Below, piece by piece: positions 2,444-16,890 of a stretch of DNA of 30,161 nt. The translations under genes and the position numbers were made by a program. How positions within the stretch are numbered: the first letter of the stretch is position 1; each line of letters starts with the position of its first letter. Origin of the DNA: a virus. The notes beneath the pieces were generated by a model. That model ran no database searches. It was not told the origin of the DNA and was given only the letters and a program-made list of their open reading frames with translations. The DNA is taken from the IMG/VR virus record IMGVR_UViG_3300049732_000060, positions 1 to 30,161 of that record. One strand, written 5' to 3'.

Positions 2444-2659
2444 ATGCGTAGAGTGACTACTTCCCGTCGCGAAGTACTCATACCTAACTATGCGGCGCTG
2501 ATAGGCGAGTTAGAGCACGCGGAGTCAGTGACGGTGCGGCGGTGTGTCGGGTGTGGGGTGGTGTTTGTGGAGAGTCGCGGGCAGCAGCGGTATTGCGGGG
2601 CGCAGTGTCGGAGGCGTGTGGGACAGCGGCGCTATCTGGAACGGAAGCGGGCGGCATGA
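2444..2659 (+). CDS. Small zinc-finger protein (CxxC...CxxxC)
   Basis: A 71-residue basic protein with four cysteines at residues 34, 37, 51 and 55, in the pattern Arg-Arg-Cys-Val-Gly-Cys-Gly ... Arg-Tyr-Cys-Gly-Ala-Gln-Cys-Arg-Arg-Arg. The C-terminal helix is Arg-rich (Gln-Arg-Arg-Tyr-Leu-Glu-Arg-Lys-Arg). This is the classic form of small treble-clef-like or CGNR-like zinc fingers with a Cys-Arg-Arg-Arg helix, known from many phages and bacterial proteins and generally inferred to bind nucleic acid. Its stop overlaps the TerL start (ATG 2656, TGA 2657-2659). A role in packaging or late regulation is inferred from position only. Confidence 0.75.
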   Translation: MRRVTTSRREVLIPNYAALIGELEHAESVTVRRCVGCGVVFVESRGQQRYCGAQCRRRVGQRRYLERKRAA

Positions 2660-4230
2660 GGCGGGTAGTCTTGCCGGCTGTCTCTGAGACGCCGATTGGG
2701 CCTGGGGGGCTCTGTGGGTGGTGTGGGCAGGCGTATATCTGGGCGGCTGGGGCGTGGTGGTGTCCGACGCTTCAGTGTCAGCGGCAGCAGGCGGAAGCGG
2801 CAGTGTCGTTGACGGATAAGCAGGGGACTGTCCGGTATGTCTACGTCCCGACGTCGAAGGGTGTGGATTACGAGCGGGCGGCGGCGAAGAACCGGATGTT
2901 GGGTGGGGCGGCTGGCGGGGCCAAGAGTCACATTCTTCGGTGGGGGATGTTGCGGCGGGCGACGACGGTGCAGGGGTACAACGGGCTGTTGGTGAGACGG
3001 ACGTATGGGGAGTTGGAGAAGTCGCAGTTGCGGCGGTTGGCGGTGGAAGTGCCGATGTTAGGGGGGGTCTATCACGAGTCGAAGTATCTGGCGGAGTTCC
3101 CGCAGACGGGGGCGCTGATCGAGGCGGGGCATTTGGATGATGCGACGGCGCTGAGTCGGTGGTTGTCCACGGAGTATGACGAGATCGTGGCGGATGAGGG
3201 CAGCACGTTCAATCCGAAGTTCCTGTTGGAGTTGAGTACGCGGGCGCGGTCGAGTAAGCCGAGTGTGAAGGCGAGTGGGGGCGCGCGATTCGGCGTGGGC
3301 ACCAACCCCGGTGGGCCGGCGTGGCAGATCCTGAAGGAGCTGTTTGTCGATAAGAACCCGGATTTCGAGCAGTTCCCGGCGCTGAAGAAGTTCTACGACC
3401 CGGCGAAGTGGATGTATATCAAGGCGCTGTTGGACGACAACCCGTATCGGGACGAGGACTACGAGGAATCGTTGGCGGTCTTGGGGGAGGCGCGGTACCG
3501 GCAGTTGCGCTGGGGCGACGAGGACGTGTTTGACGGCCAGTTCTTTGCGGAGTGGCGGGAGCATGTGGACGGGAAGCCGTATCACGTACAACGGCTGGAG
3601 GTGCCTGCTGGGACGGAGGGGTTCTGCTCGCTCGACTGGGGGTTCAACGATCCGTTCGTCTGCTACTGGTGGTGCTGTCTCCCTGATGGGCGGTATTACA
3701 TTCGCCGGGAGTGGAAAGACGATCACGTGTACGCGGAGGACTTCGCGAAGGGCTGGTGGAAGATTACGCGGGACGAGGTCGGGTGGAAGCGGGCGCGGTA
3801 TCTGGTGGTCGGTGGGGATACGAGCGCGAAGCATGGGTTGAAGACGGCGCACGGCGAGAGCGTGCAGGACACGCTGCGGCATTACGGGTTGCCGGTACGG
3901 GATGCGGATCGGGACCGGAAACCGGGATGGTATCGGGTCCATGAGTTATTGCGGCCGACCCCGTGGGGGGAACCGTGGCTCGTGGTGGATCCGAGTTGTA
4001 CGTACCTGCGGCGGACGCTGCCGAATGCGCCGTGCGATCCGAACGACCTCGATGAGATTGACGAGAAGGCGTTTCCGCAGGTGCATGGGTTGGAAAGCCT
4101 GCGGTACGGGGCGATGAGCCGGCCAAGTCCGACACGTGTCACGAAAGCCCCTGAGTATCCGGTGGGCTCGCATGGGTGGTGGAACACCACCTATTACCAG
4201 AAGCCGAGTGAGGAGGGGCCGTTGCCGTGA
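2656..4230 (+). CDS. terL: Terminase large subunit (ATPase and nuclease) with N-terminal zinc ribbon
   Basis: A 524-residue packaging motor protein. The start at ATG 2656 is chosen because it overlaps the preceding stop; the longer frame to 2542 only shadows the zinc-finger gene. Residues 20-41 carry an unusual extra Cys cluster (Cys20, 23, 36, 41). The ATPase has a Walker A-like Gly-Gly-Ala-Ala-Gly-Gly-Ala-Lys-Ser at about 83-91 and Walker B Asp-Glu-Ile-Val-Ala-Asp-Glu at about 175-181. The C-terminal RNase H-like nuclease shows three plausible metal-binding acidic sites: Ser-Leu-Asp327-Trp-Gly-Phe, Gly-Gly-Asp388-Thr-Ser and Val-Val-Asp445-Pro-Ser. Length is normal for TerL. TerL translocates DNA into the prohead using ATP and cuts the concatemer. 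Residue numbers are hand-counted. Confidence 0.93.
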   Translation: MRRVVLPAVSETPIGPGGLCGWCGQAYIWAAGAWWCPTLQCQRQQAEAAVSLTDKQGTVRYVYVPTSKGVDYERAAAKNRMLGGAAGGAKSHILRWGMLRRATTVQGYNGLLVRRTYGELEKSQLRRLAVEVPMLGGVYHESKYLAEFPQTGALIEAGHLDDATALSRWLSTEYDEIVADEGSTFNPKFLLELSTRARSSKPSVKASGGARFGVGTNPGGPAWQILKELFVDKNPDFEQFPALKKFYDPAKWMYIKALLDDNPYRDEDYEESLAVLGEARYRQLRWGDEDVFDGQFFAEWREHVDGKPYHVQRLEVPAGTEGFCSLDWGFNDPFVCYWWCCLPDGRYYIRREWKDDHVYAEDFAKGWWKITRDEVGWKRARYLVVGGDTSAKHGLKTAHGESVQDTLRHYGLPVRDADRDRKPGWYRVHELLRPTPWGEPWLVVDPSCTYLRRTLPNAPCDPNDLDEIDEKAFPQVHGLESLRYGAMSRPSPTRVTKAPEYPVGSHGWWNTTYYQKPSEEGPLP

Positions 4231-10282: not shown

Positions 10283-11251
10283 ATGCCAACGGTTACCGTG
10301 GGGCAGCGTCTGGCGGTGGCGTGGCCCGCCTTCGTGGGCAAAACGCCGTACGACCAGATCTTTCCCCAGTACTGGACGCTGGACCGGCTGAAGACCGGCA
10401 AGGCGTTCAAGGGCTTCGATGGCGGCACCTCGATTCAGGGGCCCATCGAATACGCCCTCAACTCCACCGTGGAACCGATGTCGCCCTACGGGACGATGTC
10501 GATCCAGCACGTCGATGTCTTCGATCAGTTTGATTTTGCCTGGAAGATGTACGGCGGACACGCCGTCCTCTCCTCGCAGGATCAGGCCGAGAACATGGGG
10601 TCGAGCAAGAAGATCGACCTCGAAGAAGCGACCCTTCAGAACCTGCGGAAGTCGATGATGGATCAGTTGTCGGTGGGCGTCCATTCGGACGGCACCGGCA
10701 CCAGCTCCCTGCAGGTCGGCGGCCTGCAGCACGTCGTCGCCAATACCCCGACCTCGGGCACGGTCGGCTCGATCAACCGGCTCACCTACTCGTTCTGGCG
10801 CAACCAGACGACCTCAGGCACGAAGTCCTCAACGGCCTACGACAACCTGCGGTCGGCGATGCGGACGATCTACAACGCCGCGTCGAACGGGTACTCCACC
10901 GATCACCCCGAGTTCTTCGTCTTCACGCAGACCGATTTCGCCGGCTACGAATCGCTTCTCGTCGCGAACGAGCGGTTCACCGACAAGTCGGCCGGTGACG
11001 GCGGGTTCAAGAACGAAGTCCTGAAGTTCAAGGGGGCGCTCGCGGCCTATGACGGCGACTGCGCGTCAGGCACGGCGTACGCGCTGAACACCGCCCACCT
11101 GAAACTCGGGTACCTGAACGGCTACTGGATGAAGGGCTATCCGGCGGTCGATCCGGCCAACCAGTTCGTCGAGGTCTTCAAGATCGAGACCAAGGCGAAT
11201 CTCTTTGCCACCAACCCACGCCACCTCGGCGTGATCACCTCGATTACGTAG
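10283..11251 (+). CDS. Major capsid protein (HK97 fold)
   Basis: A 322-residue protein with a GGAG site 6 bases upstream of ATG 10283. Central helical segments hold Tyr-Asp-Asn-Leu-Arg-Ser-Ala-Met-Arg-Thr-Ile-Tyr-Asn. Then comes the P-domain-like series His-Pro-Glu-Phe-Phe-Val-Phe, Phe-Ala-Gly-Tyr-Glu, and Val-Leu-Lys-Phe-Lys-Gly-Ala (LKFKGA at 247-252). The C terminus has Tyr-Leu-Asn-Gly-Tyr-Trp and Asn-Pro-Arg-His-Leu-Gly-Val-Ile-Thr. The Leu-Lys-Phe-Lys-Gly signature followed by a Tyr-rich end is frequent in HK97-fold coat proteins. Length, place after the scaffold and before a decoration-like gene, and regular G/C-ending codons support the call. It ends in TAG, so TAG works as a stop in this phage. 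Confidence 0.88.
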   Translation: MPTVTVGQRLAVAWPAFVGKTPYDQIFPQYWTLDRLKTGKAFKGFDGGTSIQGPIEYALNSTVEPMSPYGTMSIQHVDVFDQFDFAWKMYGGHAVLSSQDQAENMGSSKKIDLEEATLQNLRKSMMDQLSVGVHSDGTGTSSLQVGGLQHVVANTPTSGTVGSINRLTYSFWRNQTTSGTKSSTAYDNLRSAMRTIYNAASNGYSTDHPEFFVFTQTDFAGYESLLVANERFTDKSAGDGGFKNEVLKFKGALAAYDGDCASGTAYALNTAHLKLGYLNGYWMKGYPAVDPANQFVEVFKIETKANLFATNPRHLGVITSIT

Positions 11252-11267
11252 GAAAGGAGGACGCACA

Positions 11268-11855
11268 ATGGCCAATCTTCGTGGAATCGGCGGGTATGCG
11301 GCTTCCATTTCGACGTCGGAGACGGTGGGCACGTCCGTGGCGGATCCGGCACTCGGCTCGCTGTGGACGTCTCCGACCGGCGACAAGGTGTACGTCGTCG
11401 TGGATTGTCAGAATGCGTTCGTGGCTGGTGAGCCGTGTTACATCGACTCGTCCAACCTCGCCACGCGGCTCACCGACGCCAATGCGGCCACGGCTCGCGT
11501 GGGCGTGATCGTCGCGGCAGTCAGCGCGTCGGACACCAAGGCGTACGCCCAGATTTACGGGCTGTACTCCGGTGCCGCTGGCACGTCGAACGTGGCGACG
11601 TGCAAGACGCTGGGTGCAGCGACGGCGGTCTGCGACCTCGCGGCGTTCGCGGGCTTCAACGACTCGGACGAGGCCGCGGTCGTCATCTTCGGCGCGTATG
11701 CCATGACGGCGACGGACTCGGGGGCCACCTCGAGCTACGCCACGTCGTTCGTGTCTGCATCCGGCACCTCCACGGTGCAGATCGGATTCGACGTGTGGTT
11801 GAACTACCCGTTCACCATCAACAAGCCAATGATCGCGTCCCTGAATGACACGTAA
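11268..11855 (+). CDS. Probable capsid decoration protein
   Basis: A 195-residue Ala/Ser/Thr/Val-rich all-beta-type protein with the best ribosome-binding site in the window (AAAGGAGG, 7 bases before ATG 11268), consistent with high expression next to the coat gene. Features are Gly-Asp-Lys-Val-Tyr-Val-Val-Val-Asp, Phe-Val-Ala-Gly-Glu-Pro-Cys-Tyr-Ile-Asp and Ala-Arg-Val-Gly-Val-Ile-Val-Ala-Ala-Val-Ser. Decoration or head-stabilising proteins of this composition often follow coat genes. Four Cys are present. The function is inferred from composition, expression signal and position. It overlaps the next gene by 11 bases. Confidence 0.6.
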   Translation: MANLRGIGGYAASISTSETVGTSVADPALGSLWTSPTGDKVYVVVDCQNAFVAGEPCYIDSSNLATRLTDANAATARVGVIVAAVSASDTKAYAQIYGLYSGAAGTSNVATCKTLGAATAVCDLAAFAGFNDSDEAAVVIFGAYAMTATDSGATSSYATSFVSASGTSTVQIGFDVWLNYPFTINKPMIASLNDT

Positions 11856-12678
11856 AGCGACACCGTTGGTGATCAAGCGAGGGGATGGGGGCTTTCTGTC
11901 CCCTCCCCCGTCTCTCCCGCTGACCGGACTCGGTCGGCTCAGGAAGATTGCGCTCGTCGGGAGCGCGGAAACCGTCGAACACGCCCCGTGGTACGACCCC
12001 ACATGGGAAATCTGGGCACACTCGGTGACGTCCGGTCGCTGTAAGCGCATGACGCGCGTCTTTGAAATGCACCCGGAACACGTCTGGCGTGAGCACAAGA
12101 AACCGCAGTGGTCAGGCTATCTCCAGTGGCTGCAACGCTGTCCGCATCCGCTGTACATGCTGGAGAAGCACGCGGACATCCCGTCGTCGGTGCGGTATCC
12201 GCGTGAGCGCATCTTCGGGGAATGCCGGTCGATGATCGGGCGTCTCCACTTCGGGTCACAGGCCGATTTCATGATTGCGCTGGCGTTGTCGGAGGGCGTG
12301 ACCCATCTCGGCCTCTTCGGCGTGCAGTACACCGCGATGGCCGATGGCGTGACGCGCGACGAACAGTTGCTCGCCTTCAAGTTCTGGCTGGGTGTGGCGG
12401 CGGGGAAGGGTGTCCAAATTGTGATGCCGGAAGGGCATCCCACCTTCAACATCCCGGCTGAAGTCTACGGATTCGAATCGCACAGCACGCCGGCCAAGTA
12501 CGAGGCGCGGTTGCGCGCGGGGCACGCGGTGGCGGTCAAGGACCACGACGGCACGGTGCGTCCAGAGCGGCTGATTCCGGCGGTCAACATCACGCACGCG
12601 CCACCGCCCAAAGGATTCGACGCTAGCGAGATGGATGACCCGGACGTGGCGATGCGACGGTGGATGGCCCTCGCATGA
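11845..12678 (+). CDS. Phage protein with a Rossmann-like fold, first of two paralogues
   Basis: A 277-residue protein. Near residue 35 a beta strand and Gly turn (Lys-Ile-Ala-Leu-Val-Gly-Ser-Ala) resembles a nucleotide-type fold. Further motifs are Trp-Glu-Ile-Trp-Ala-His-Ser, Val-Phe-Glu-Met-His-Pro, Leu-Tyr-Met-Leu-Glu-Lys-His, Ser-Gln-Ala-Asp-Phe-Met-Ile-Ala-Leu-Ala, Leu-Gly-Leu-Phe-Gly-Val and Glu-Val-Tyr-Gly-Phe-Glu. Proteins with this order of motifs are frequent in tailed phages near head genes and remain unassigned as far as I know; a glycosyl or phosphate-handling enzyme is possible but unproven. The next gene is a diverged copy. Its ATGA junction couples translation of the two. Confidence 0.65.
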   Translation: MTRKATPLVIKRGDGGFLSPPPSLPLTGLGRLRKIALVGSAETVEHAPWYDPTWEIWAHSVTSGRCKRMTRVFEMHPEHVWREHKKPQWSGYLQWLQRCPHPLYMLEKHADIPSSVRYPRERIFGECRSMIGRLHFGSQADFMIALALSEGVTHLGLFGVQYTAMADGVTRDEQLLAFKFWLGVAAGKGVQIVMPEGHPTFNIPAEVYGFESHSTPAKYEARLRAGHAVAVKDHDGTVRPERLIPAVNITHAPPPKGFDASEMDDPDVAMRRWMALA

Positions 12679-13367
12679 AACTCAAGATGCGGACGTGGGC
12701 CACGCGGTTCAGTGACCTCACTTACACCGGAGACATTCACGCCCGTCTCCCGCCGAACCCGCACGCCCATGATGGGGTGAAGACCGTGATCATCACGGGC
12801 CGGCGCATTGCGCCGGAGTCGCCCAAGGTGCGATGGCCGCATGCGGAGCTGTGGGGCGTGACCCGCTGCAACACGTTCTATTGGCGGGAAACGCTGACCG
12901 ATTGGGACCGCTGGTTCGACGTGCATCCGGTGCAGCCGACCGACTACCACAAGGGCATTCTCGCGAAGCGGCCGGAAGCGTGGGAGTGGTACACCAGGCA
13001 GCGGAGCGGCAGGCCGATCTATCTGCTGGAGCCACATCCCGACGTGCCGGACTCCGTAGCCTTCCCGCGTGCGGAGGTGCAGGCGTTCTTTGACACCTCA
13101 CAGTTCACGGTCAGCGTGGACTGGTTGATCGCGCTCGCCCTAATGGAAGGGTTCCAGCGGATCGTCCTGAACGGCATCGGGACGCGCATGGAGCCGACCT
13201 ACCAGTACGCGCATAAGGGGATTCTCTACTGGATTGGGTTCGCGCGGGGGCGCGGGGTGGAGGTGCTGATCGAAGGCCCGTCGTGTTACGCGGAGCCGGA
13301 GAAGGTCTACGGGTACGAACTTGGGGCTCCGGTGTGGGAGTCGAACGCCACACCAGTGGCCGTGTAG
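12675..13367 (+). CDS. Phage protein with a Rossmann-like fold, second paralogue
   Basis: A 230-residue protein from ATG 12675, overlapping the first paralogue's stop. It shares in order the strand-plus-Gly/Arg turn (Val-Ile-Ile-Thr-Gly-Arg), Trp-Phe-Asp-Val-His-Pro, Ile-Tyr-Leu-Leu-Glu-Pro-His, Val-Asp-Trp-Leu-Ile-Ala-Leu-Ala-Leu-Met-Glu-Gly, Trp-Ile-Gly-Phe-Ala-Arg-Gly-Arg-Gly-Val and Lys-Val-Tyr-Gly-Tyr-Glu. It lacks the long C-terminal tail of the first copy. The similarity is visible by eye and indicates an old tandem duplication. Function unknown, as for the first copy. Confidence 0.65.
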   Translation: MKLKMRTWATRFSDLTYTGDIHARLPPNPHAHDGVKTVIITGRRIAPESPKVRWPHAELWGVTRCNTFYWRETLTDWDRWFDVHPVQPTDYHKGILAKRPEAWEWYTRQRSGRPIYLLEPHPDVPDSVAFPRAEVQAFFDTSQFTVSVDWLIALALMEGFQRIVLNGIGTRMEPTYQYAHKGILYWIGFARGRGVEVLIEGPSCYAEPEKVYGYELGAPVWESNATPVAV

Positions 13368-13375
13368 GAGAACAG

Positions 13376-13966
13376 ATGGCGAGAGAGAAAGAGTCAACGG
13401 AATCGGCACCGATGGTGGACCTGCAACAGATGGTGATGGACCTGCAAGCGCAGATTCAGGCGTTGCAGCAGCAGCAGGCACAGGCACCGGGCGGGCAGTG
13501 GATGCAGGCGTTCATGGAGCGCATGGTGGCGCTGCAGGAACAGCAGGCCACAGCGATGCAGGACCAGCGCAAGGCGCTCGAGGAGCAGTCGGCGCGGACG
13601 CTGCCGAAGGAGAACCCGAACTACGTCGCGCAGAGCATCTTCCTGAAGCCGAGTGGGGAGCCGTGGGCGGCGGATCTGAAGTGCGACATCTACCTGAACT
13701 CGATCAGGCTGAATCGCACGCCGCTGACGAAGGCGGAAGTGGACGCACTGAACACGCTCGTGGGCATTGACAAGGCGCGGATCCGGAAGGTGGACGGCTC
13801 CGATGTCCTCGGGTCGGTCACGCCCCGTGAGGACGCCTTGGGGCGCATCGACCGGCTCACGATGACGTTGCCGATGAAGAAGGACGACAACCCGCAGCAC
13901 TACCCGGCACTGGATGTCATTGCGCAGCAGTTCGCGGCACAGGCGGCGGCACTCGTCTCGGTCTAA
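13376..13966 (+). CDS. Gln-rich coiled-coil phage protein
   Basis: A 196-residue protein. ATG 13376 follows an AGGAG site by 5 bases, so it is preferred over the longer frame from 13283. Residues about 14-77 are Gln/Met/Leu/Ala-rich with heptad-like spacing (Leu-Gln-Gln-Met-Val-Met-Asp-Leu-Gln-Ala-Gln-Ile), suggesting a coiled coil. The C-terminal domain carries Leu-Thr-Lys-Ala-Glu-Val-Asp-Ala-Leu-Asn and Lys-Ala-Arg-Ile-Arg-Lys-Val, then an amphipathic Ala-rich end. It lies between head proteins and the neck-type protein, so it may be a minor structural or assembly factor. No named family recognised. Confidence 0.6.
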   Translation: MAREKESTESAPMVDLQQMVMDLQAQIQALQQQQAQAPGGQWMQAFMERMVALQEQQATAMQDQRKALEEQSARTLPKENPNYVAQSIFLKPSGEPWAADLKCDIYLNSIRLNRTPLTKAEVDALNTLVGIDKARIRKVDGSDVLGSVTPREDALGRIDRLTMTLPMKKDDNPQHYPALDVIAQQFAAQAAALVSV

Positions 13967-13969
13967 CCC

Positions 13970-14935
13970 GTGAACCTGCTCGATCTGCGGAAGCGGCTGG
14001 CGCGGCGGCGCAACGTGGACGACAGTTCGCCGCCGACCGCATTCGTCTCGCTGAGCAACGACCTCTTCAACGAGGCGCACCGGACGATTCTGCGGAAGCC
14101 GGGGATGGCCTCGTTGCGGTATGCGTTGGTGACGTTTCCCTCCGTCGCGAGCACGCAGCAGTACTGCCTGCCCACGCAGGGGGTGGCGCGGATTAATCGC
14201 ATCTGGGAGACGACGAACGACATCAAGTTGCAGTACCGCACGATGGACTGGCTGCGGACGCAAGACCCCGATCCCATCACGGGGACACCCTGCTACTGGA
14301 TTCCTACGGGGTTCTCGGAAGTCCACACGCAACCGTCTGATGCGTCCTCGGTGTTCGTGGACTCCACAGCGGCGGGTGACACGGGCACCGCCTACGTGGA
14401 AGGCATCACGACGGGCGGGTATTACCAGAGCAAGTCCGTGACGATGACCGGCACGACAGCCGTCAACATCTCTACGGCGGTGACGGACTGGGTGCAGATC
14501 ACCAAGTTCTATCTCTCCACGGCGGCGGTGGGCACCGTGACGTTGCACGAGGACGCGAGCGGCGGCACGGAGTTGTCGAAGATTGCCATCGGGGACGTGC
14601 GGGCGCAGTTCCTGCGGTTCCTCCTGTACCCCACGCCGGCTGCGGCGGTGACGTACTCCTGCGACATCACGCGGGCCATTCCCGATATGAGCAACACCAC
14701 GGACGAGCCGTTGTTGCCGGAGGACTTCCACAACCTCCTGGTGGACATGGCGGAACTGCGGCTGACGAAGAAGGCGGATGACCCCTCGCGCTACGCGATG
14801 CTGACCCGAGAGGTCGCAGACGCCACGCGCGATCTGGTGACGTGGGTGGGGAACCATCCGGACTACTCGCCGCAGTGGGTGCAGGACGAACCGGAACGGT
14901 CGGCGCTGGGCGCGTGGTATCCGGACGGGAGCTGA
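13970..14935 (+). CDS. Neck or head-tail adaptor-like structural protein
   Basis: A 321-residue protein starting at GTG 13970, four bases past the previous stop. The N-terminal 90 residues (Leu-Leu-Asp-Leu-Arg-Lys-Arg-Leu-Ala-Arg-Arg, then Phe-Asn-Glu-Ala-His-Arg-Thr-Ile, then Tyr-Cys-Leu-Pro ... Arg-Ile-Asn-Arg-Ile) match the general pattern of podovirus head-completion/adaptor proteins: a helix, then a hydrophobic Tyr-x-Leu-Pro strand. The middle is beta-rich (Thr/Ser/Val/Gly). The C terminus returns to helix (Leu-Leu-Val-Asp-Met-Ala-Glu-Leu-Arg-Leu). It probably sits between portal and tail. Its TGA overlaps the next ATG. Confidence 0.6.
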   Translation: MNLLDLRKRLARRRNVDDSSPPTAFVSLSNDLFNEAHRTILRKPGMASLRYALVTFPSVASTQQYCLPTQGVARINRIWETTNDIKLQYRTMDWLRTQDPDPITGTPCYWIPTGFSEVHTQPSDASSVFVDSTAAGDTGTAYVEGITTGGYYQSKSVTMTGTTAVNISTAVTDWVQITKFYLSTAAVGTVTLHEDASGGTELSKIAIGDVRAQFLRFLLYPTPAAAVTYSCDITRAIPDMSNTTDEPLLPEDFHNLLVDMAELRLTKKADDPSRYAMLTREVADATRDLVTWVGNHPDYSPQWVQDEPERSALGAWYPDGS

Positions 14936-15537
14936 TGAGTCAAGCCAAGGGCGGGCGGATGGTGTTCACTGGCATTCGTGGCCGGGACGGGGGCAGTGTC
15001 TCCACGATCAACTCACCAGACTGGCTCGCGGCGGAAGTCCTCAATGTGGAGTTGGACGGCACGTGCTTCGGGCGGCGTCGGGCCGGCCATATTGCCATCT
15101 CCACCAACAACAGTTTCCAAGGTGGCGGCACGATGGCCGCGATCCTCGTCCATGTCCCGGCTGGGGATTACAGCGTCACGCAAATCTTCGGCATCTCGTT
15201 CGATACCTCGGCCATCAATCGCCTGCCGGTGAACTCCCCGACGTGGGCGAACCTGACGTTGAAGGACGCGGCCTCGAGTGGGGCGGATGCGAGTTACGAC
15301 GCCGCAGGGTGTTCGTTCAACAGCAAGTTCCACATTCTGTACAACACGGCGGTGGATCGGTCGCATGTCATCGTGGACGGTGAGACGACGGTGCGGCGGC
15401 TGGGACTCGCCACGTCTGCCGCGCCCACGGTGGCGGATACGGGGTCCGGATCCTACACGGCCACCCAGCGGTGGTATCAACAGTCGTATCGCATCAAGAG
15501 TGGCTCGACGGTCCTCGCGGAAGGGGAACGCTCCTAG
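14935..15537 (+). CDS. N-terminal part of a tail-hub-like protein, ended by an in-frame amber codon
   Basis: A 200-residue frame from ATG 14935 that stops at TAG 15535-15537. It begins with Gly-Ile-Arg-Gly-Arg-Asp-Gly-Gly and then Asn-Val-Glu-Leu-Asp-Gly and Arg-Arg-Arg-Ala-Gly-His, a pattern frequent at the start of beta-propeller-like tail hub proteins. The end, Leu-Ala-Glu-Gly-Glu-Arg-Ser, runs without any frame change into the following gene: codons after TAG read Ser-Val-Ala-Phe-Thr-Pro-Ser-Gly, exactly where homologous full-length proteins continue, as I recall the family. The two pieces are thus probably one protein of about 651 residues broken by a single stop. Readthrough, suppression, mutation or assembly error are all possible. 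Confidence 0.75.
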   Translation: MSQAKGGRMVFTGIRGRDGGSVSTINSPDWLAAEVLNVELDGTCFGRRRAGHIAISTNNSFQGGGTMAAILVHVPAGDYSVTQIFGISFDTSAINRLPVNSPTWANLTLKDAASSGADASYDAAGCSFNSKFHILYNTAVDRSHVIVDGETTVRRLGLATSAAPTVADTGSGSYTATQRWYQQSYRIKSGSTVLAEGERS

Positions 15538-15540
15538 TCG

Positions 15541-16890
15541 GTGGCGTTCACGCCGTCCGGGTCAGGTACGGCCGCGCAGGTGACGAAGGGCACGGCGCTG
15601 AGCGAGGGCGAAACCCATTGGGTGCTCTGGGCGAGCGCGGATAGCACGTCCGGGCCGTTCTACGAGATTGCCGAGACTGCGGTGGGCACGACCACGTACG
15701 ACGACAGTGCCGCCCCGTCCACGTATTCCGCGAGCACGTCCGGGGTGGCGAAACTCGCCGGCACCTTTTCGACGCTCCCCTCCACAAAGTTCTGCGTCAC
15801 CGTCGATAACAAGGTGCTCTTTGCGGGGGCGTACGAGTCGGGTGTGAACGCCTCGCGTGTGTGGATGACGCCGACGCTCGGGTCATTGGGGCGCGGGGAT
15901 GACGAGCGGTATCTCAACACGACGGAGGTCAAGGGCTACATCGACGTCGAAGAAGGCAACGGCGGCATCATTACCGCCCTCGCGATTCTCGCCGGTCAAG
16001 CCATCGTCTTCAAGGAACGGCAGATCTGGCGATTCGTCGCGACCGGGGATCCGGTGGCCCCCTTCACCCCGCGGAACATCTCCCGCAGTGTCGGGTGCAT
16101 CAACCACCGCACGGTGGCAGCGGGCGTGGATGACCTCGGGAATCCCTGCCTCTATTTCGCGGCACAGGACGGTCCCTATCGCCTCGGTGTGAACGGACTG
16201 GAGTATCTCGGGTTCGACGTCGAAGACGTGTGGGCCACGCGCTCGAGCAACACGGCGTTCGGGGTGTTCTACGGGCAGAAGCATCAGTACTACCTCGCCA
16301 TCGCGAGCACGTCTGGCAACTATGTGCGCTTGCGGTTCAATCGCAAACTCGGGCGGGTCGTTGACGGCGTCATTCGTGGTGGCTGGATGAAAGATTCTGG
16401 CACGACGCTGTTGCAGTTCCAGCGCGGGATGGCGTTGGTGCCGTATTCACCGGGCCTCACCGGGGAACAGACGTATGTCCCTCGCCCGCATGTGCTGGAT
16501 ACCTCTGGGGTGGTGCATCGCGCGGATGACATCTACGACGACAACGGCACCGCCTATTCGGCGTATGTGGAGACCGTGCCGCAACTCCCTGCGGGTCCGC
16601 TGGTGAAGTTCACCACGGGCGTGCCGGGGGTGATTGCGTATACGGACACCAGCACGCAGACCCTGACGGTCAGCCAGCGCAAGAACTACAACACGTCGTC
16701 CAGTGACGTCACGGTGTCGTTGAATACCACCCGTCGGCATCTGCGCGTGGAGGAGGGCGGCATTCCTGGCGCTGGTGACATGGACGCCATTGCCTTCCGG
16801 GTGGGGGATACCGGCGTCACCGACAACACGTGGACGGTGGATGCCCTTGTGGTGCCGTGGAGTCCGCAGGAGGCGCTGACGGATCTATGA
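15541..16890 (+). CDS. C-terminal part of the tail-hub-like protein, after the amber codon
   Basis: A 449-residue frame that could start at GTG 15541, but no Shine-Dalgarno site is visible and the GTG is only two codons after the amber stop in the same frame. It begins Phe-Thr-Pro-Ser-Gly-Ser-Gly, then Glu-Gly-Glu-Thr-His-Trp-Val-Leu-Trp-Ala-Ser-Ala-Asp, then Tyr-Glu-Ile-Ala-Glu-Thr-Ala-Val-Gly-Thr-Thr-Thr-Tyr-Asp, motifs of the middle of phage tail-hub/stopper-type proteins. Later repeated short beta motifs (Val-Gly-Cys-Ile-Asn-His-Arg, Ala-Gln-Asp-Gly-Pro-Tyr-Arg-Leu-Gly) suggest a propeller fold. It would seal the portal channel and join the tail. Its ATGA junction leads into the next gene. 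Confidence 0.75.
   Translation: MAFTPSGSGTAAQVTKGTALSEGETHWVLWASADSTSGPFYEIAETAVGTTTYDDSAAPSTYSASTSGVAKLAGTFSTLPSTKFCVTVDNKVLFAGAYESGVNASRVWMTPTLGSLGRGDDERYLNTTEVKGYIDVEEGNGGIITALAILAGQAIVFKERQIWRFVATGDPVAPFTPRNISRSVGCINHRTVAAGVDDLGNPCLYFAAQDGPYRLGVNGLEYLGFDVEDVWATRSSNTAFGVFYGQKHQYYLAIASTSGNYVRLRFNRKLGRVVDGVIRGGWMKDSGTTLLQFQRGMALVPYSPGLTGEQTYVPRPHVLDTSGVVHRADDIYDDNGTAYSAYVETVPQLPAGPLVKFTTGVPGVIAYTDTSTQTLTVSQRKNYNTSSSDVTVSLNTTRRHLRVEEGGIPGAGDMDAIAFRVGDTGVTDNTWTVDALVVPWSPQEALTDL

Follow-up and report, generated by a model that had tools for sequence, protein, structure and literature searches.

A tail nozzle gene on a single metagenome-derived contig is interrupted by one in-frame amber codon, which is probably (at about 0.82) a lone nonsense codon private to this record, arising either from a sequence or assembly error or from a real, recent mutation. 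These two origins carry roughly equal weight. Under the first, the consensus base would be wrong, through a sequencing or assembly error or because the consensus took up a minor variant; under the second, the sampled phage would carry a recent nonsense mutation leaving an incomplete propeller, and it would be defective unless its host suppresses the stop. Positions refer to the window, by which we mean the whole 30,161-base virus record analyzed, whose coverage is unstated.

Table 1. Features of the window in and around the interrupted nozzle gene.
Feature	Position	Strand	Basis
Major head protein, TAG-terminated; query used for relatives	10283..11251	+	Gene call
SU10 adaptor-like protein (Pfam PF24175), encoded immediately before the nozzle gene	13970..14935	+	Pfam
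N-terminal 200 codons of the predicted nozzle/hub protein (P22 gp10 / T7 gp12 / SU10 nozzle fold)	14935..15534	+	Homologues, fold
AAGGGG purine run, sole Shine-Dalgarno-like sequence ahead of GTG 15541	15521..15526	+	Sequence
In-frame TAG	15535..15537	+	Homologues: Ala, Pro, Asp, Thr or Ser codon at the site
C-terminal 450 codons of the same predicted nozzle/hub protein, ending in TGA	15538..16890	+	Homologues
GTG, start candidate of the gene caller, aligned with a Val common in homologues	15541..15543	+	Alignment

Reading frame and protein family

The frame running on the plus strand from the ATG at 14935 to the TGA at 16888-16890 has the TAG as its sole interruption, with 200 codons before it (14935-15534) and 450 after it (15538-16887, then TGA). 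This confirms the original prediction, in which the amber codon lay exactly in frame between two open frames, and the junction is as described there (GERS*SVAFTPSG, the asterisk marking the stop). Both parts belong to one coding frame, because codon-usage log-odds are positive in the nozzle frame on either side of the stop (0.25 and 0.27 per codon) and negative in the other two frames; a 450-codon open frame would arise by chance with p about 1e-6. There is no second lesion within the gene. Its start codon (ATG) overlaps the stop codon (TGA) of the adjoining head-tail adaptor gene (PF24175, 13970-14935), and an SU10-adaptor-like gene directly upstream is a feature shared with podovirus nozzle loci.

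The protein is predicted to be the tail nozzle or hub of a short-tailed phage. An AlphaFold model was built on the closest homologue, L009, with 39 further rows in the input (pLDDT 91, pTM 0.88). Compared by Foldseek and VIA-align, this model matches the tail nozzle chains of Pa223, VP1, SU10, P22, Sf6, and T7 over nearly its whole length, with VIA Z scores of 29.8 for Pa223, 27.5 for VP1, 27.3 for SU10, 25.7 for P22 gp10, and 20.2 for T7 gp12; the best alignment joins 478 of its residues to 9nwi_Y (Z 29.8, rmsd 2.9). The beta-propeller nozzle fold was thus found over the whole chain of a model 38% identical to the window protein, although sequence identity to these nozzles is about 10-12% and, unlike them, the copy in the window carries a TAG in frame. 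The fold match and the contiguous homologues bear out the earlier reading of the two frames as one tail-hub-like protein. Pfam gave no match for any of the 40 family members, and PHROGs gave weak matches, mostly to unnamed families.

Unrelated propellers align to model residues about 35-540, and the propeller therefore spans the stop site, which corresponds to model residue 199 and falls in a loop linking strand 190-194 to strand 201-203. From strand order and repeat-like sequence, the site looks as though it lies within a beta-sandwich inserted in the propeller. Since the propeller extends across the stop, a product terminated after 200 residues would be an incomplete propeller.

Homologues at the stop site

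Relatives fetched with the head protein comprised 56 loci, 14 of which hold the nozzle gene, in each case as one open frame (14/14). An alignment (A1) of 13 nozzle homologues and the window protein was used for a second scan, giving 50 loci; its FTPSG-type motif pattern, the source of most homologues, is located downstream of the TAG site, so that stop-bearing copies would also have been found. The two parts of the window protein find the same homologues and align to them as one contiguous, in-register match. A residue is present at the TAG column in 64 nozzle copies, 51 of them distinct, and among the latter it is Ala in 32, Pro in 13, Asp in three, Thr in two, and Ser in one. A nearly invariant Glu precedes the column and an invariant F.PSG block follows it, so that the stop falls inside a conserved block when it is aligned to intact homologues. 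Across about 28,400 codons in these 51 distinct homologues, all on other virus contigs, the aligned gene contains no internal stop, and the family members do run uninterrupted through the site, as had been proposed; they are single genes, not two parts that are always separate. The ordinary causes named in the original prediction, recent mutation and assembly error, fit a stop absent from every one of them.

The closest homologue is the same for both halves of the window protein, at 35 and 38% identity to L009, and a chimera joined at the TAG was rejected on these grounds. No nozzle relative of >90% identity was found. Searches of viral contigs yielded no relatives with the C-terminal part alone as query, no instance of the exact pattern around the TAG, and no confirmed relative with the adaptor protein as query; DNA searches of phages recovered no near relatives. 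Against named phages, tblastn returned no match for the N-terminal part and one weak match, a "phage stabilization protein," for the C-terminal part.

Relatedness across 10283-16890 is mosaic. For the head protein and the two gene products after it, identity to relatives such as L008 and L004 is about 80-84%, whereas it is 60% for the adaptor (to L009) and only 37% for the nozzle protein. Two nozzle loci have unusual layouts: at L073:2962-7271 the end of the nozzle match (query 517-641) is separated from the main match, sitting about 2.4 kb farther downstream and in a different frame, and at L081:3001-5921 the full gene is closely preceded by an additional, partial match to the middle region of the nozzle protein (query 157-257).

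Possible restart, readthrough, or suppression

Gene fission would leave the TAG as a genuine terminator, with translation restarting at GTG 15541 three bases on and the two nozzle chains co-assembling. The in-frame GTG directly after the stop and the AAGGGG run upstream are consistent with such a restart; the split would fall, in the model, in a loop between strands and would leave the conserved Glu and FTPSG blocks intact, one before and one after it. Fission also occurs in this group, as the terminase genes of three relatives are split into two ORFs. However, no nozzle homologue is split (0 of 51 distinct), and the stop site seems to be internal to a single beta-sandwich instead of marking a domain boundary. 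The GTG after the stop is explained by its alignment with a conserved Val codon that most homologues carry (Val in 29 of 47, encoded by GTG in 18 of those). The downstream GTG had been described as lacking a Shine-Dalgarno sequence, which is right in part: a purine run is present and would form a duplex of -7.9 kcal/mol with the anti-Shine-Dalgarno, but the 14 bases between run and GTG are too long for a usual Shine-Dalgarno. The ATGA or GTGA overlap present in two of the split terminases is absent as well. A two-piece nozzle made by restart at this GTG is therefore unlikely, although, if true, a working one would show a well-studied machine arranged in a new way.

The split large terminase genes lie at L009:979-2594, L017:3886-5543, and L018:3231-5182. 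The break corresponds to a point close to residue 350 of TerL in the window, roughly at the expected junction of the ATPase and nuclease parts; the stop codon of one ORF overlaps the start codon of the next within GTGA in L017 and within ATGA in L018. In the window itself, TerL (2542-4230) is encoded by a single ORF. At L011:4217-4327, three TGA codons interrupt the alignment to the N-terminal part of TerL over a stretch of about 110 bases, through either a frame change or a false extension of the alignment.

Programmed readthrough, which would yield short and long nozzle forms from one gene, accords with an in-frame stop followed by an intact coding extension, and two hub forms of this kind had been proposed. 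Yet the stop is conserved in 0 of the 51 distinct homologues, and RNA folds downstream of and around it are ordinary (z 0.27 and -0.77). No contig had TRR (stops or Trp) at the site ahead of the motif in a partial scan of the collection, made with a motif version that matches only a minority of known copies. The related suggestion of a short hub form made by a leaky stop fares no better, as that product would be, by the model, an incomplete propeller (propeller at residues about 35-540, stop at 199). Readthrough is accordingly the least probable of the readings considered.

Host amber suppression, in which a UAG-decoding host tRNA would cause the stop to be partly read as an amino acid, is very improbable, though a little less so than readthrough. 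In its favor, the in-frame TAG stands alone in a gene that is otherwise intact and looks essential, and the site tolerates several residues (Ala, Pro, Asp, Thr, and Ser). Against it, an internal TAG occurs in one gene only, while TAG terminates six other called genes of the window; read as sense, it would extend the head protein by 59 codons into an overlap with the next gene. No tRNA gene was found in the window, a record that may be a fragment. ARAGORN called only tRNA-Lys(TTT) and tRNA-Ser(GCT) in 16 relative records, none with a CUA anticodon; one further Rfam tRNA match had no ARAGORN call. Dependence on amber suppression, as had been envisaged, is thus unsupported by the search for a suppressor tRNA in the window and these 16 records.

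Comparison with recoded phages points the same way. In phAss-1, a recoded phage, 41 ORFs contain TAG and three genes encode suppressor tRNAs (PMC10607447). Only 52% of code-15 phages carry a suppressor tRNA, however (PMC11210395). The window resembles TAG-recoded phages (code 15; phAss-1, Crassvirales) in that one of its late structural genes contains a TAG in frame. Unlike code-15 phages (PMC10607447; PMC11210395), it has the TAG in one gene and uses TAG as a normal terminator, and no suppressor tRNA was found in the window or called in the 16 relative records. No internal stop was found in any other true gene frame of the window when compared with relatives. General codon reassignment had been judged unlikely at the outset, and we reject general TAG recoding, given the six TAG-terminated genes and the TAG at 15535 as the only internal one in true frames. 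Internal stops at other regions of the window proved to be shadow-frame matches, every called gene being itself open.

Frequency of isolated stops in related genes

We infer that the nozzle stop is private to this record and recent. About 3.4% of random single substitutions in the window genes create a stop, and therefore a few stray consensus errors or mutations suffice to produce one. Neither error nor mutation is routine, however, because isolated internal stops outside TerL number 0 in 210 distinct homologous gene copies on related contigs (about 80,000 codons; portal, head, adaptor, nozzle, and three other genes). For TerL, 26 copies include the three two-ORF splits and the one alignment with three TGA codons. 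A lone stop would thus be uncommon in any one contig, yet may be expected now and then across many windows read.

When a metagenome contig shows a lone in-frame stop that is absent in all homologues, this should not be taken as recoding. The interrupted gene itself is predicted to be one more divergent podovirus nozzle gene, whose fold is assigned with confidence in a case where Pfam is silent and PHROGs are weak.
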